From an uncultured Oscillospiraceae bacterium (GTDB lineage: Bacteria; Bacillota; Clostridia; Oscillospirales; Oscillospiraceae): a DNA stretch of 40,150 nucleotides. The translations under genes and the position numbers were made by a program. Below are positions 15,464 to 22,238 of the stretch, one piece after another. The stretch lies in assembly GCA_947626085.1 (NCBI GenBank), contig CANQQU010000012.1:1-40150 (forward strand), written 5' to 3'. The number at the start of each line of letters is the position of its first letter. Position 1 is the stretch's first letter. Below the pieces are notes generated by a model, which worked only from the letters and a program-made list of their open reading frames with translations, had not been told where the DNA came from and did no database searches.

Positions 15464-18400
15464 TCAGTTCTTCTTCCGGCGTCTGGCGGCGCCAGGCAGG
15501 AGGCACACAGCCGCGCCGCCGGAGAGGACGCACAGCGCCAGCAGGGCCGGCAGTGGCGCGCTGTCACCGGTCTTGGGCACGTCGGAAGCCTCGCTTCCGG
15601 GCTTCGTGGTGGTGGGGGCAGTGGTCGCCTGCTGTCCCTGTCCCGAGCCGGGCAGATCCGGCAGGACTTGGGAGCGGCTCGCCACCTGGAAGGAGACGGT
15701 GGCCGCACCGTCCACATATTCGATCTCCAGCTCATAGCTGCCGGGCTCCAAGGTGTTCAGATAGTCGTCCGTCAGCACCAGCGCGCCGGTGGCCCGGTCA
15801 AAGGTGTAGTCCGTTCCTTCCTGGAGCGGGAACCCGTTGACCCGGACCATATTGTACCCGGCAAAATTGCCGGAGTCGGTGGCCATACGGAAGCCCATTC
15901 CGCCGGAGGAGGCATGCAGGTTCCAGGTCCCGCCACCGCTGAGGGTGTACTCAACTTCGCCGCACACGCATTTTCCATTTTCATAGGTGTGGGCGGTCTT
16001 GGGGATCTCCTCGGTCGTCTTGCGGCCGCACACGATGCAGGTCCGCTCCCGCTGGCCCACGGCGGTGCATCTCGGCTCCACCGTCACGGTCCCCTCGTTA
16101 AATTTGTGGGGCTCCTCCTGGAACCAGGCGCCGCAGTCCCCGCAGACCTTCCAGTGCTTTTCCGCGTCTTCGTACACCGTATGGGCGTTTTCATGGGCGC
16201 AGGCGGCTTTGCTTTCGTCCAGCCTCGCCAGGATCATGCCCTTCACGATCACCGCGCCGCAGTCCTGGCAGACCTGGTCGCCGGAGTAGCCCTCCGCTTC
16301 GGCGGTGGGATTCACATGGCCCACCAGCTTGGTGGCACCGTGACTTTTAGGATCCAGTTCGCCGTAGGGCGTTCCGCAAATTTCACATTCCGCCGGATGG
16401 GAGCAGGTGGCTTTCCCGCCCGTATGGGGCACCTCCGGCTCCGCGGCGGTGCAGCCGGAATTGGAGCAGACGTGCCAGTGACCGGCCTCGTTGCAAAAGA
16501 CCTTGTTGCTCCAATGATGTTCTTTTTCTCCCTCTTTCAGCACCTTCTGACACACGGCACAGACCTCAGGCGTGGTGCAAAGATAGTCGTTTTCCGCCGG
16601 GGTATGGGCTTCCGCCAGCAAATGGGCCTTGCAGCCCTCGTTCAGGCAGGACTGATAGTGCTGTTCCCCGTCCCACTCCCAGACGGAGGAGGGAACATGT
16701 TCCAATGCCGGCGCCGCGGTATAGCCGCAGACCTGGCAAATTTCCGCCGTGGTGCAGTCCCCGTCGTCCACGCAGTCGTGGCGGACTTCATCTTCCTTAT
16801 GTTCGCAGTCGGGGTTGGTGCAGACGTGCCAGTGGCCGTCTTTGTCATAAGCGTATTGGTCCCCGTACTGATGGCTGCTCTGTGCCGCCTCCAGCTCATA
16901 GCCGCACACGCCGCATTTCAGCGCCGTGGTGCAGTCGTGGTCGTCCGCATTCGGCGTATGGGGCACCTTGGTCGTCTCATACTTGCAAACCGCGCATTGC
17001 TCCCAGTGGTGCTGATCGTCCGACCGCCGCTCCAAGGTGTGCGCGATCTTATCCTTCACAAATCCGCAGACCGTACACTGATCCCAGCAGGCGGCGTCGT
17101 CATATACCTTCTGGAATTTGTGGCTGCAGGTCTCCGTCAACGTGGGGATCTCCTTCCCCTTTTCAACGATCGTATGGCAATCGGCGCACTGGCGGTCGCC
17201 GGTGTAGCCTTTTTCCGTAAAGGTCGCCGCTTTTTCATTCACCACCACAATGCGGGTATGCTTCGTCATATCCATCGACCCATATTGCTGGTGGCACACG
17301 GTGCAGGTCGCCGGCGTCTGGCAGGTGGCCTCGCCGCCGGTGTGATGGGCGTCAGGCCCGGTGAGCCGCTGGATACCGGTGCATCTGCTGTTCAGACACT
17401 TTTGATAATGCCCTTCCGCGTCGCCCAGGATTGCCGCGCCGTAGACATTGTGGCTGCCCGCCGCCGCCGTGATCACATCGCTGCAAACCTGGCAGTGGAT
17501 GCCCTTGGTACAGTCGTAGCTCACACCATAGGCGCTGTCCGGCGTGTGGGCCTCTCTGTCGGAGATTTGGTTGCATCCGTCGTTCTGGCAGGCCCTATAA
17601 TGAACCCCGCCGCTGGAAATGTAGGGCCCCCACTGGTGTTCCTCGGCGGCCTTCAGCACATAGCCGCAGCTGGCGCACTTCCACTCCGTGGCGCAATTCC
17701 CGTCATCCTTGGAGTGGGCGCTCTCGATGCCGACGCTGCAGCCGGGATGGGCGCATTTTTTCACATGGTAGGTTTCGTCCACATATTCATATAAATTCTT
17801 GCTATAGTCATGGGTTTTATATTGTGAGTCCACATACAGCCCGCAGATCGTGCAGGTGAAGGCCTTGGTGCAGTCGTAGTCCGCCGGGGGTGTATGTTCT
17901 TCTTTTTCAACTGTATAGGTGCAGCCATTGCGGGTGCATTTGGCCTCGTGCGTTTTCGGGTCTTTGCCGTTATCGCCGTAGCTCCACTTTAGATCGTGGT
18001 TTTCAAAAGCCTCCACTTTTTCGCCGCAGCGCTTGCAGGTCACCTCCTGGGTGCAGTCATGACTCGCCTCATAATCATGGCCCAGGGCCTTGGTGCCGAA
18101 GGTGGAGTCGTTGTACCGGATATCCTTGGGATTGATCTCTCCGCATATTTTACAGACATAGCCGGAGGCGGAGGCAGTCGTGCAGGTGGCGTTGTATTGC
18201 TCGCCCTTCCCCTGAAGGGACTGGCGGTAGCCGTAAGAATGCTGCACCGGAAGCGCCTTGGTGATCTTCGCTTGGCACCCCGGGTTCATGCACTGAGCTT
18301 CCTGTTTACCGGGAGTCGTGCAGTCCGGCTGCACGGTCGTCTTCCAGAAGCCGTACCGGTGCCCGGTGGCTGCCTTTGTCACGTTATAGCTTCCGGGCTT

Positions 18401-19312
18401 GATCGTATTGCACTTCTGGCAATACTGCCAGGTAGCCTCGTCATTCTCACAGTTCTGAGTAGACGATCCTGGCACCCACACATGCTCGGTGTTTTCCATA
18501 TTGACCACATCGCCCTGCTCATTTTTTCCGCAGAGCTTGCAAACCTTTTCCGTCTCGCCATTGCATTTGACAGCGACGTCCACATATTGATGCTTGGTAT
18601 CATCAACGGGGATCTCGGTTCTCCGCTCCCCAAAGGGCTGGTCGCAGCTGGGGCACATGTAATACGAAACGGTGTAGCCCGCCGTTGAACAAGTCGCGGG
18701 AACGGTGTAGTCGGACCGGCCACCCAGAACATGTCCGTGGGTGTAGGACACCTCTGTCGTCTCGCCGTTTTTGCCGTGGAGCGTCAGGGAGATACTCCCC
18801 AGTTCTCCACCCAGCAGGGCCTCGACCCTGGCGGCAACTTGATCAGGCAAAACGCCACTTTCGCTTTTACTATCGGTGAAGGTAGGCTTCACGGTGATAT
18901 CCACATTTTCTGTATTGGAAAATTCCAGCCCGGGGAGAGTACAGTACTGCCCCCAGGTGTTGGTCGAGCCTTTAATTTCCACCGAGGGCCCACCTTCCGC
19001 CGCCGGCACCGGCTCGTCCATCATTGGTCCGTCCATCATCGGCGCGGCCTGGTTCGGTTCCGCCGGTTCCGTAGAAGGCTCTGTGGCCGGCGCCGTCGTC
19101 TGTTCGGCCGCCTGGGTGGACTGAGTGTCCGTTGTTTCCTCGGGAAGCCCCGCCTGGGGCTCTCCGGGTTCCGTCCCGGCAGGAGCCGTCGCCTCCGAGA
19201 CGGGAGGCTGTTCCTGTTCGTCGTCCGCGTGAACTGCCGGCACCGCCAGGGGCAGCGCCAGAATTAGCGCCAGAAAAAGCGCAAGGATTCGATCGCGCCG
19301 GGTATGTCTCAT
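15464..19312 (-). CDS. Giant Cys/His-rich sortase-anchored surface protein
   Basis: A 1282-residue secreted protein. Order: signal peptide (1-29, AVHA/D), Thr/Glu/Pro-rich stalk (30-107), a beta-rich domain (about 108-200), then about 900 residues rich in Cys and His. Its core is a repeat of roughly 50-60 residues with the pattern H-[YW]-x2-C-x4-C, then H, then C-x5-C-x2-C, then H; at least seven copies are readable, some with CG after the last Cys. Two blocks of the GYTGD-x2-C-x2-C type are interspersed. An Ig-like X2 domain (about 1110-1210), a second stalk and a VPKTG sorting signal (1245-1249) with membrane segment and RRRKKN tail end it. The CxxC/His pattern suggests many zinc-ribbon-like modules. 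No enzyme domain seen; function unknown. ATG 19312 has GGAGG upstream. Monocistronic. Confidence 0.5.
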   Translation of the reverse strand: MRHTRRDRILALFLALILALPLAVPAVHADDEQEQPPVSEATAPAGTEPGEPQAGLPEETTDTQSTQAAEQTTAPATEPSTEPAEPNQAAPMMDGPMMDEPVPAAEGGPSVEIKGSTNTWGQYCTLPGLEFSNTENVDITVKPTFTDSKSESGVLPDQVAARVEALLGGELGSISLTLHGKNGETTEVSYTHGHVLGGRSDYTVPATCSTAGYTVSYYMCPSCDQPFGERRTEIPVDDTKHQYVDVAVKCNGETEKVCKLCGKNEQGDVVNMENTEHVWVPGSSTQNCENDEATWQYCQKCNTIKPGSYNVTKAATGHRYGFWKTTVQPDCTTPGKQEAQCMNPGCQAKITKALPVQHSYGYRQSLQGKGEQYNATCTTASASGYVCKICGEINPKDIRYNDSTFGTKALGHDYEASHDCTQEVTCKRCGEKVEAFENHDLKWSYGDNGKDPKTHEAKCTRNGCTYTVEKEEHTPPADYDCTKAFTCTICGLYVDSQYKTHDYSKNLYEYVDETYHVKKCAHPGCSVGIESAHSKDDGNCATEWKCASCGYVLKAAEEHQWGPYISSGGVHYRACQNDGCNQISDREAHTPDSAYGVSYDCTKGIHCQVCSDVITAAAGSHNVYGAAILGDAEGHYQKCLNSRCTGIQRLTGPDAHHTGGEATCQTPATCTVCHQQYGSMDMTKHTRIVVVNEKAATFTEKGYTGDRQCADCHTIVEKGKEIPTLTETCSHKFQKVYDDAACWDQCTVCGFVKDKIAHTLERRSDDQHHWEQCAVCKYETTKVPHTPNADDHDCTTALKCGVCGYELEAAQSSHQYGDQYAYDKDGHWHVCTNPDCEHKEDEVRHDCVDDGDCTTAEICQVCGYTAAPALEHVPSSVWEWDGEQHYQSCLNEGCKAHLLAEAHTPAENDYLCTTPEVCAVCQKVLKEGEKEHHWSNKVFCNEAGHWHVCSNSGCTAAEPEVPHTGGKATCSHPAECEICGTPYGELDPKSHGATKLVGHVNPTAEAEGYSGDQVCQDCGAVIVKGMILARLDESKAACAHENAHTVYEDAEKHWKVCGDCGAWFQEEPHKFNEGTVTVEPRCTAVGQRERTCIVCGRKTTEEIPKTAHTYENGKCVCGEVEYTLSGGGTWNLHASSGGMGFRMATDSGNFAGYNMVRVNGFPLQEGTDYTFDRATGALVLTDDYLNTLEPGSYELEIEYVDGAATVSFQVASRSQVLPDLPGSGQGQQATTAPTTTKPGSEASDVPKTGDSAPLPALLALCVLSGGAAVCLLPGAARRRKKN

Positions 19313-19332
19313 AACTTCCTCCGTTCACTTGC

Positions 19333-19372
19333 CGCGGGGAGACCCCGCGATTGTCCTAAGGGCCAATGGCCC
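19333..19372 (-). promoter_or_regulatory. Two tandem hairpins in the surface-protein leader
   Basis: CGCGGGG-aga-CCCCGCG (19333-19349) and GGGCC-aat-GGCCC (19360-19372) lie between the predicted transcription start (about 19381) and the ribosome site. Neither is followed by a T run, so they are not terminators; they could affect mRNA stability or translation. Confidence 0.5.
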
Positions 19373-19387
19373 AACTTACTAAATACA

Positions 19388-19417
19388 ATTATATTACATT
19401 ACCCCCCCCGCTGTCAA
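19388..19417 (-). promoter_or_regulatory. Surface-protein promoter with a G8 tract in its spacer
   Basis: On the minus strand, consensus TTGACA (19412-19417), an 18-bp spacer and consensus TATAAT (19388-19393). The spacer contains an uninterrupted run of eight G (19402-19409). Loss of one G would give the optimal 17-bp spacing, so slipped-strand changes would be expected to alter promoter strength. The stretch 19418-19562 upstream holds no recognisable gene. Confidence 0.5.
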
Positions 19418-19562
19418 GAGGCACTTATTGTATAAAATTGCATCAAAGCCCAAATCTTTTGCCGCCGTATCTGATTTTCACAAAAAAAGCCGGAATTTTG
19501 CTTGTAGGGCCGTATCATTTGCCGAGGTTTTGTAAATAATTCCTTATCCCCCAAAATCAGGC

Positions 19563-19590
19563 TTGATTTTCCCGGGAAAATCTGTATAAT
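19563..19590 (+). promoter_or_regulatory. Promoter with an 18-bp palindromic operator
   Basis: TTGATT (19563-19568), 16 bp, TATAAT (19585-19590). GATTTTCCCGGGAAAATC (19565-19582), a perfect 18-bp palindrome, fills the spacer and overlaps the -35, as expected for a repressor site. Confidence 0.5.
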
Positions 19591-19621
19591 AGGCAAAGAC
19601 TCGGAAAAGGAGGTCAATCCT

Positions 19622-19852
19622 ATGAAAAAAACCATCTGCAAGCGGGAGTATGACACCGAATCCGCCACCCTGATCGAAAAACATACCCAGGGTTACTTCG
19701 GCGACCCTGCCGGTTATGAGGAGTCTCTCTACCAGACCCCTGGCGGTCTCTACTTCCTCTACCTCCGGGGCGGTCCCGCCTCCCCCTATCCTGTGGAGGA
19801 TATCCAGCGCCTGGCAAAAGCGAAGGTCGGCGCCTGGCTGGAGCAGCCCTGA
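19622..19852 (+). CDS. Small conserved-type protein of unknown function (76 residues)
   Basis: A 76-residue soluble protein with no signal peptide or membrane segment. It has the pattern KREYDTESATLI near the N-terminus, followed by EESLYQTPGGLYFLYLRGG. I recall this layout (KxYDTETA ... ExLYxTKxGxYFL) from many small proteins of Clostridia, often near mobile or accessory genes, but no function is established that I know of. The start is secure: AAGGAGGT lies seven to nine bases upstream. It has its own promoter with a palindromic operator and its own terminator, so it is a separate transcription unit between the surface protein and the metal importer. Confidence 0.5.
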   Translation: MKKTICKREYDTESATLIEKHTQGYFGDPAGYEESLYQTPGGLYFLYLRGGPASPYPVEDIQRLAKAKVGAWLEQP

Positions 19853-19856
19853 ATGG

Positions 19857-19882
19857 TCCCCCCATTTTTGGGGGGATTTTTT
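19857..19882 (+). terminator. Terminator after the 76-residue protein gene
   Basis: TCCCCCC (19857-19863) pairs with GGGGGGA (19870-19876), followed by T6 (19877-19882). Confidence 0.5.
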
Positions 19883-19889
19883 CTGCCAC

Positions 19890-19917
19890 TTGACACTTAT
19901 GGTATATTGAATATAGA
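19890..19917 (+). promoter_or_regulatory. Promoter of the metal ABC importer with an overlapping dyad
   Basis: TTGACA (19890-19895), 16 bp, TATAGA (19912-19917). A perfect dyad TATATT-g-AATATA (19903-19915) overlaps the spacer and -10, a typical position for a repressor. It does not look like the classical Firmicute Zur or MntR boxes I know. Confidence 0.5.
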
Positions 19918-19942
19918 AATCTCTAGTATTTGGGGGATTCTC

Positions 19943-20773
19943 ATGAAAAAAATCGCCCTAATATTGATTCTTGCCATGCTTTTGTCCGGCTGCCAGGCGG
20001 TTCCGGCGGCCCAGGTGGCCGCCACCACCCTGCCGGTATATGCGTTTACATCCCGGCTGTGCCAAGGTGCCGGTATCACCGTGACCCGGCTGGTCACGGA
20101 GCCGGTTTCCTGCCTGCACGACTATTCCCTGGGCGTTGCCCAACTGCGGACCCTGGAACAGGCGGAGCTGGTGGTGATCTCCGGGGTGGGACTGGAGGAT
20201 TTTCTGCCCCTGGAGGCGGCGGATAAAGTGCTGGACGCCTCTCAGGGTATCGAGCTTCTGCTAGGCCCGGATGGGGAACCGGACCCTCATATCTGGCTCT
20301 CCCCTGCCTGCGCCCGGCAGATGGCCCAAAATATCTGCGACGGCCTGTGCGCCCGGTATCCCGCCTGGGAGTCTGTCTTCCGGGACAATCTGGCCTCCCT
20401 GCTCTCCGATTTGACCGCTCTGGAGGACTATGGCCGGGAGGCCCTGGCGCCGCTGGCGCAAAAAGGACTCCTTCCCTTCCACGACGGCTTTTCCTATTTT
20501 GCCCGGGACTTTGGCCTGAACGTGCTGGCCTCCATCGAGGAGGAATCCGGCAGAGAGGCTCCTGCCGCCCTGCTGATCCAGCTGTCCGGCATTGTGGAGG
20601 CGGAAAACCTCCCCGCGATCTTCGTGGAAGTGAACGGCAGCACCGCGGCGGCGGGGATCATTTCCCGGGAAACGGGCGTACCTATTTTTTCCCTGGACAT
20701 GGCCATGGCCGGGGACAGCTACTTTGACGCCCTATACCGCAATATCGACACCATTCGGGAGGCATACACATGA
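19943..20773 (+). CDS. Metal ABC transporter substrate-binding lipoprotein (ZnuA/AdcA-like)
   Basis: A 276-residue cluster A-I (TroA-like) binding protein capturing Zn2+ or Mn2+ outside the cell. It has a lipoprotein signal with lipobox LLSGC (Cys17). The three metal-ligand His of the family are His59 (CLHDYS), His116 (DPHIWLSP) and His180 (PFHDGF); the fourth ligand should be an acidic residue near 255 (SLDMAM). No His-rich loop, which many zinc-specific members carry. ATG 19943 follows GGGGGATT. The gene ends in an ATGA overlap with the ATPase gene. Zinc is favoured by the three-His pattern, but manganese cannot be excluded. Confidence 0.5.
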   Translation: MKKIALILILAMLLSGCQAVPAAQVAATTLPVYAFTSRLCQGAGITVTRLVTEPVSCLHDYSLGVAQLRTLEQAELVVISGVGLEDFLPLEAADKVLDASQGIELLLGPDGEPDPHIWLSPACARQMAQNICDGLCARYPAWESVFRDNLASLLSDLTALEDYGREALAPLAQKGLLPFHDGFSYFARDFGLNVLASIEEESGREAPAALLIQLSGIVEAENLPAIFVEVNGSTAAAGIISRETGVPIFSLDMAMAGDSYFDALYRNIDTIREAYT

Positions 20774-21525
20774 TCACCGGACCCCACCACGGCAGCTGCG
20801 GCGATTCCTGCTGCCTGAAGCTGCAAAACGTCAGCGTGACCATCGGCACGGACCGTATCTTGGAAGACGTGAATCTCCATGTCCACTGCGGCCAGCTGCT
20901 GGCCCTGATCGGTCCCAACGGGGCGGGCAAAAGCACCGTCCTCAAAGCCATTCTGGGCCAGCGGGCATATTCCGGGGCCATTCAGTTCTCCGTCCCCGGC
21001 CAGCGGCACCGCCATCCGCCCCGGATCGGCTATGTGCCCCAGAGCCCGGCCTTTGATCCGGGGGACCCGGTCAGCGTGGAGGACCTGTTTGCCTGCTGCA
21101 TGAGCCGCCGGCCCGCCTTTCTGGGCCTTTCCCGGGAAATGCGGGAGACCGTGGAGCGGAGCCTGGCCCGGGTCCACGGGGAGGAGCTGGTGAAAAAACG
21201 GGTGGGGTCCCTCTCCGGCGGGGAGCTGCAGCGGGTGCTGCTGGCTCTGGCGCTGGAGCCGGTGCCCAACATCCTGATCCTGGACGAGCCGTTGTCCGGC
21301 GTGGACGTGGAGGGCATGGCCACCCTGATGGATATGCTGGACGAGCTGCGGCGGACCTATGACCTGTCTATTTTGATGACCACCCACGACTTTTCCCTCC
21401 TGCCCCGGTATGCCGACCAGGTGGTGCTGATCGACCGCCGGGTGCTGTGCCAAGGGACGGCGGAGGAGGTCTTGAGCAGCCCGGAATTTGCCCGGGTGTT
21501 CCACCGGAAGGAGGTGGCGGAATGA
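20770..21525 (+). CDS. Metal ABC transporter ATP-binding protein
   Basis: A 251-residue ATPase energising the importer: Walker A GPNGAGKST (48-56), Q loop near QSPAF, signature LSGGELQRV, Walker B ILILDEP and switch His in THD. The N-terminus before the usual LKLQNVSV strand is extended and carries His6, His7, Cys10, Cys14 and Cys15 within ten residues. ATG 20770 overlaps the stop of the binding-protein gene and the end overlaps the permease start, both as ATGA, giving translational coupling. Confidence 0.5.
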   Translation: MITGPHHGSCGDSCCLKLQNVSVTIGTDRILEDVNLHVHCGQLLALIGPNGAGKSTVLKAILGQRAYSGAIQFSVPGQRHRHPPRIGYVPQSPAFDPGDPVSVEDLFACCMSRRPAFLGLSREMRETVERSLARVHGEELVKKRVGSLSGGELQRVLLALALEPVPNILILDEPLSGVDVEGMATLMDMLDELRRTYDLSILMTTHDFSLLPRYADQVVLIDRRVLCQGTAEEVLSSPEFARVFHRKEVAE

Positions 21526-22238
21526 GTCTCTGGTATGCCCTGCTGGACGCCCAGCCCTGGGAGATGCTCCACTGGGACTTCATGAAAAACGCCTTTCTGG
21601 CGGTGCTGCTCATGGCGCCCCTGTTCGGCCTGACCTCCACCATGATCGTCACCGGTCGGATGAGCTTTTTCTCCGACGCCCTGGGCCACGCCGCCTTTAC
21701 CGGCATCGCCATCGGGGCCATCTGCGGCCTGGCAAGTCCCACCTGGGCGGCGGTACTCTTCGCCCTGGGGTTTGCGTTGCTGTTTTCCTTTGTGCGAAGC
21801 CGGAGCCATCAGACCGCCGACACCCTCATCGGCGTGTTTTCCAGCACCGCCGTGGCCTTGGGCATTTTCATCGCCACCGCCGGCGGCGGGAGCTTTACCA
21901 AGTACAATAAGTATCTAATCGGAGACATTCTCTCCGTCACCCCCGGCGAGATCGGGATGCTGGCGCTGGTGCTGCTGGCGGTGGTGGTGACCCTGGCCAT
22001 CTCCTGGGTGGGATTGCTGATCCTCAATTCTCTACTGGTGCTGCCTGCCGCCGCGGCTAGGAACGTATCCCGGAATCTCAAGCAGTACCACAGCTTTTCC
22101 GTTCTCTTTGCCCTTGCGGCGGGGATCGGAGGGCTGACGGCGTCCTATTACTTAGGCGCTTCGGCGGGGGCCTCCATATCGCTGACCCTGGCCGTCATTT
22201 TCGCCGTGAGCCTGTGTTTTCGGAAAGCGAGGGCATGA
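21522..22238 (+). CDS. Metal ABC transporter permease (ZnuB-like)
   Basis: A 238-residue integral membrane permease of the ABC-3 family with about seven hydrophobic segments. The family block FFSDALGHAAFTGIAIG (about 50-66) that contacts the ATPase is clear, and NSLLVLPAAAARNVSRN (about 170-186) corresponds to the conserved LL-x-PAA-x-A region. ATG 21522 is chosen because it overlaps the ATPase stop and has GGAGG upstream. It overlaps trmO by 4 nt at the end. Confidence 0.5.
   Translation: MSLWYALLDAQPWEMLHWDFMKNAFLAVLLMAPLFGLTSTMIVTGRMSFFSDALGHAAFTGIAIGAICGLASPTWAAVLFALGFALLFSFVRSRSHQTADTLIGVFSSTAVALGIFIATAGGGSFTKYNKYLIGDILSVTPGEIGMLALVLLAVVVTLAISWVGLLILNSLLVLPAAAARNVSRNLKQYHSFSVLFALAAGIGGLTASYYLGASAGASISLTLAVIFAVSLCFRKARA

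Follow-up and report, generated by a model that had tools for sequence, protein, structure and literature searches.

A promoter on the minus strand of the window (the whole stretch of 40,150 nucleotides analysed here, 40 kb for short) carries eight consecutive G between its two hexamers, ahead of a gene for a secreted surface-type protein. The question raised by this locus is whether the tract is an incidental part of an ordinary promoter or an element whose changing length sets expression of the gene. As far as can be judged from sequence, we consider it probable (about 0.75) that the eight G form a slipped-strand phase-variation element within the spacer of a promoter of sigma-A type. The host we infer to belong to the gut Clostridia.

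Promoter anatomy and rarity of the tract

On the minus strand, from 19417 to 19388, the promoter reads TTGACA-GC-GGGGGGGG-TAATGTAA-TATAAT, where GGGGGGGG is the run of eight G. The features of the locus are the following:

19412..19417, minus strand: -35 hexamer TTGACA, perfect consensus, identical in the sister species G154
19402..19409, minus strand: G8 tract within the 18-bp spacer, flanked by GC and TA; G9 in G154
19388..19393, minus strand: -10 hexamer TATAAT, perfect consensus, identical in G154
19313..19387, minus strand: conserved stretch between the -10 hexamer and the start codon; it contains a GGAGG ribosome-binding site, and two hairpins are predicted in it
15464..19312, minus strand: ORF for a 1282-aa secreted Cys/His-rich surface-type protein, with Pfam matches below cut-off only

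The initial annotation had described a perfect TTGACA and a perfect TATAAT separated by an 18-bp spacer holding eight G, and this description is exact, the hexamers agreeing with the consensus at 12/12 positions. The homopolymer thus lies between the -35 and -10 elements of a good promoter, as in the porA and tp0126 type. The promoter ends 75 bp from the ATG at 19312, which is preceded by a GGAGG Shine-Dalgarno sequence, and the promoter scan listed no other promoter-like site on the minus strand between 18000 and 21000. Perfect 12/12 promoters with spacers of 15-19 bp occur twice in the window, so that such a promoter is not rare by itself; what is outstanding is its combination with the G8 tract, its position and its conservation in the sister species.

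Long G runs are scarce in the window (120 of G5, 19 of G6, one of G7 and one of G8), and its only G8 is the promoter tract. Since a mean of 19.5 G8 runs is expected from dinucleotide shuffles, and 5.2 from an independent-base estimate, long G runs are avoided here, and the promoter G8 is an outlier in such a sequence. This depletion, together with the retention of promoter, leader and gene in the sister species (see below), argues that the G8 promoter did not arise by chance.

Other roles for this region were also considered. A structured leader RNA is unsupported, with no Rfam match at gathering score anywhere in the window, leader included, and fold z-scores of -0.87 and -0.51; the first of these is that of the leader, which therefore shows no excess structure. 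A G-quadruplex is ruled out because forming one within a strand takes more than a single G run, and RNA polymerase slippage at the start site is ruled out by the location of the tract upstream of the -10 hexamer.

The surface-protein gene and its neighbourhood

The 1282-aa product contains 79 Cys, 58 His and 19 CxxC motifs, a composition that makes a metal-binding role possible. Read by eye, its N-terminus resembles a signal peptide, and its C-terminus has the order of a sortase substrate, with VPKTG at residue 1245 as the LPXTG-like motif, followed by a hydrophobic stretch and a basic tail (the tail also read by eye), so that surface exposure is indicated by sequence features. Three matches to the sortase family PF04203 above cut-off are present elsewhere in the same genome. 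No curated anchor model of Pfam or NCBIfam matched the protein: NCBIfam gave 0 families at E-values up to 10, and Pfam only sub-threshold matches to CBM_X2 (a weakly similar stretch) and DUF1180. Short anchor models of this kind can miss variants of the motif. The earlier description as a sortase-type surface protein is thus upheld by the VPKTG tail and the three sortase-family genes, and we keep it as a description of type rather than confirmed membership, given that no curated anchor model matched; the adjective "giant" was generous for 1282 aa.

Close relatives of the protein are few (P0002 at 89%, P0003 at 72%, the next at about 33%). Within the genus, at least 100 of the 136 genomes gave matches, of which, among the matches listed, only that in G154 is full length (74%) and most others are short pieces in the repeat region.

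Downstream, the gene is flanked by a response regulator and a histidine kinase, and upstream by a small ORF, beyond which lie znuA and the genes for an ABC ATPase and an ABC-3 permease; across 15464-22238, the Cys/His-rich surface gene is divergent from this zinc-uptake-type operon. In G156, G157 and G023 neither the promoter nor the surface gene is found beside the small ORF, which by eye leads apparently straight into the response-regulator gene, and for this reason the surface gene looks accessory. G026 has a different surface protein at the same place, behind a promoter that lacks a G run and has a spacer of 17 bp.

Conservation in a sister species

A query of 341 bp around the promoter was searched in the 136 genomes of the genus; some of the collections searched in this study may lack the records closest to the window's genome. 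Twelve genomes matched, and besides the window's own genome (G000) only G154 matched over the full stretch, at 86% identity. The G154 promoter reads TTGACA-GC-G9-TAATGTAG-TATAAT, with both hexamers identical to those of the window and a 19-bp spacer, and promoter, leader and gene are all kept. Conservation in the alignment covers the hexamers, the run and the leader, and is lower upstream of the -35 hexamer. The change from G8 to G9 separates two species that are 86% identical over this query and whose alignment holds other indels, and it is therefore weak evidence of hypermutation. A G7 form of the pattern gave 5 matches in 4 of the 136 genomes, with the G8+ form confined to G000 and G154.

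Recurrence of the design in other genomes

A scan of the collection of genome contigs for TTGACA, G7 and TATAAT with gaps returned at least 118 stretches, from which 80 loci with 83 promoters were analysed. Their run lengths were distributed as G7 in 21, G8 in 18, G9 in 22, G10 in 12, G11 in 5, G12 in 4 and G13 in 1, and across all recurrences of the design the runs range from 7 to 14. Runs of eight or more G occurred in 62/83 promoters versus 7/24 of the other G7+ runs of the same loci (Fisher p 7.5e-5); 17 of these 24 are G7, and three of the five that are G9 or longer themselves follow TTGAC. Spacers shorter than 15 bp were found in 4/83 promoters, where rough arithmetic gives about 39% under equal use of the allowed gaps. 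The analysed loci carry 75 genome labels, 54 of them with a G8+ example and 8 with two or more promoters.

A separate scan of the class for consensus promoters with a G8+ run in the spacer gave 12 matches in 4/391 genomes, with 0 for the reversed-pattern control among the matches listed. The design is therefore real, but rare per genome. The genome CANQZN has four similar promoters with G8, G9, G9 and G10, and G512 has seven, six with a 15-bp spacer, all of which carry G9, which means that tract length can also be uniform. One promoter is found at identical contig coordinates in L226, from the collection of genome contigs, and in L319 (G512), so that G512 was probably already in the collection set, and at least one of the 75 labels is counted twice.

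A recognizable subgroup is formed by the Faecalibacterium promoters of the form TTGACACC-Gn-TATG(C/T)-TATAAT (L224, L249 from Candidatus Faecalibacterium gallistercoris, L242 and L261), in which G8 and G10 are found within one genome. A mirror design, with C8-C9 in the spacers of consensus promoters, occurs in L375-L379, from two genomes (G441, G458) of one genus. In the class as a whole, C8 spacer runs gave 5 matches in 2/391 genomes (control 0). Viral contigs yielded 12 promoter matches at first, nine of them carrying G7 and three G9, and in a wider scan 39 stretches with C7 versus 21 with G7. As C8 spacer runs occur and C7 outnumbers G7 in viral contigs, G itself is not special.

The genes behind these promoters were assigned as those within 300 bp, and were called secreted by a crude hydrophobicity rule. 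Secreted-looking genes make up 34/47 of those behind G8+ promoters and 50/276 of the other (control) genes, with paralogues counted apart and the window's own promoter included; 27/74 G8+ promoters had no gene within 300 bp in the locus. Behind G7 promoters the proportion is nearly equal (10/16, with no gene in the locus for 5/21), hence the excess of secreted genes is not specific to long runs.

Other G tracts of the genome and a possible leader-ORF switch

The window's genome contains nine G8+ runs, and in seven of them, in unrelated contexts, the flanks follow the pattern GC-Gn-TA (contigs C1, C6 and C12; L024, L025, L026 and window 19400-19411). As a genus-wide motif this pattern was rejected: 59 relatives besides G000 gave 15 matches versus 7 for the reversed control, indicating that the bias resides mainly in G000. 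Among 72 distinct G8+ promoters, the run is preceded by C and followed by T in 33, a count inflated by paralogues.

Three of the nine runs are found on contig C1, each within a short leader ORF that precedes a small gene, at what appears by eye to be the end of a prophage-like tail region. Two proteins of this module gave no match to Pfam, and a search with one protein and one DNA pattern found no viral relatives. A glycan cluster on contig C6, which includes a NeuB-family gene, holds three more. One of these, a G8, interrupts the frame of an acyltransferase (L025, 2485-3516), with PF01757 in the part after the tract; by eye, tracts near acyltransferase-like starts are also present in G006 and G156. 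The second ends a formyltransferase-like ORF that precedes a GNAT gene, and the third is inside an ORF of 36 aa, ahead of what by eye resembles a sugar-nucleotide epimerase gene. The two runs outside the window and these clusters are intergenic on C25 and, by eye, apparently coding on C38, before an ABC-type gene. The tracts in leader ORFs or ORF ends, with one from a relative, are:

L024 (G000, contig C1): 4232-4279, 6140-6226 and 6642-6686
L025 (G000, contig C6): 14380-14949
L026: 7325-7435
L160 (G155): 1729-1782

Of the five G000 ORFs, two overlap the next ATG with their stop codon (ATGA), and the other three end 39-40 nt ahead of it; in the relative from G155 the distance is 37 nt. When the six stretches were folded (z-scores of -1.2 to -2.6, none of them strong alone), a hairpin was predicted just before the next ATG in five. 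By eye, the hairpin plainly covers the ribosome-binding site in three of the five; in the sixth stretch (L025) the start codon falls in a predicted loop.

A phase-variable translational coupling through these tracts is possible. The poly-G length would determine where ribosomes stop, either about 40 nt ahead of the next gene or, after passing the hairpin beside its start, on the start codon itself (ATGA). Genes at the tail end of the prophage-like module and in the surface-glycan cluster could be switched in this way.

Proposed mechanism and alternative explanations

The architecture of the promoter, the rarity of its tract, the conservation of its elements, the length difference between species and the recurrence of the design before secreted-looking genes are all seen in the sequence itself. 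Replication slippage would add or remove G, changing the distance and the helical phase between the -35 and -10 hexamers. With G8 and an 18-bp spacer the promoter would be active, though not optimal; spacers nearer 17 bp would be stronger, and longer ones, e.g. the 19 bp of the sister species, weaker. Because the run length differs in the sister species, the tract would most likely serve as a random on/off switch, and the cells of one population would differ in how much of the surface protein they carry. Slippage within the population and its effect on transcription are expected on this reading, and variable display may be of benefit towards the host, phage or neighbouring cells.

The same sequence could simply be a constitutive promoter with an incidental, effectively fixed G run. 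Its perfect hexamers and 18-bp spacer should function as they stand, and the uniform G9 of the seven G512 promoters indicates that such runs can stay constant. However, the G8 stands out where long G runs are avoided, G154 keeps the run at another length, and the design recurs with runs of 7 to 14 against 0 for the reversed control among the matches listed, for which reasons we regard a constitutive promoter as unlikely. The genes on either side suggest another possibility, namely that the run is, or belongs to, the binding site of a regulator, perhaps of the neighbouring two-component system or one linked to zinc, with its length secondary. The response regulator and histidine kinase downstream, the zinc-type ABC operon upstream and the abundance of Cys and His in the protein would all suit such a site, but the G154 alignment conserves hexamers, run and leader and little just upstream of the -35 hexamer, and the same design precedes unrelated genes in other genomes, leaving this explanation with a small chance.

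An error of assembly, the true run being shorter or interrupted, is the least probable explanation and in our view a very improbable one. The genome is available as a draft in 91 contigs and some sequencing methods are error-prone at homopolymers, but the run recurs with the same surroundings in G154, an independent genome, and the design is present in many independent assemblies. Slipped-strand phase variation of the promoter, as proposed in the initial annotation, thus stands as the best-supported reading, resting on the G8/G9 pair in the sister species and on the recurrence before secreted-looking genes, with further support from the G tracts in the glycan cluster and prophage-like module of the same genome.

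A wider reading, which we put forward tentatively and at slightly below even odds, is that the promoter is among the outputs of a contingency programme based on G tracts throughout the genome, which includes a second, leader-ORF poly-G switch, and that phase variation in gut Bacillota has a broad layer, so far overlooked, of homopolymer-spacer promoters of secreted proteins. The present case and the class and collection scans suggest that homopolymer phase variation also serves uncultured gut Bacillota, for secreted proteins and lipoproteins. If this is true, surface switching inside hosts could be followed directly, and without culture, from tract lengths in metagenome reads that already exist. 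Judging by titles and the first lines of abstracts, we found in the literature on gut Bacillota no description of poly-G spacer promoters, which may still be published, nor of a leader-ORF poly-G switch. The recurrence in gut Bacillota and the possible second switch are, in our view, the more interesting parts of these findings.

Comparison with known systems

The best-known cases of homopolymer phase variation come from Gram-negative pathogens and Treponema. In the Bordetella fim promoters, the length of a homopolymer in the promoter region switches a surface structure; that homopolymer is poly-C, unlike the G tract found here.

The Neisseria precedent invoked at the outset for a homopolymer between -35 and -10 holds for porA of Neisseria meningitidis, where a poly-G is placed clearly between the -10 and -35 elements and its length sets transcription (PMC7864442). 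The porA promoter resembles that of the window in this position of its tract, and differs in that its product is an outer-membrane porin. In tp0126 of Treponema pallidum, a poly-G likewise lies between the -35 and -10 elements, with transcription reportedly best at a 17-nt spacer, and for tp0126 and porA alike a 17-bp spacing is given as optimal (PMC7864442). The likeness to tp0126 extends to the surface-protein gene that the promoter serves, whereas tp0126 encodes a spirochaete outer-membrane protein (an OmpW homologue) and was tested with reporters, and the protein described here is of a wall-anchored type, from a bacterium of Gram-positive type, and known from its sequence.

A third case, from a gut commensal, is the sortase-dependent pilus of Bifidobacterium breve, in which replication slippage at a G tract switches a surface structure (PMC9187656). 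It shares with the present locus the G-tract slippage and the sortase-dependent type of surface structure, but its tract lies inside the coding sequence and acts by frameshift, not by promoter spacing. Switching by a poly-G in the promoter spacer is thus already known from Neisseria and Treponema, and the promoter described here most likely adds an example from an uncultured bacterium.
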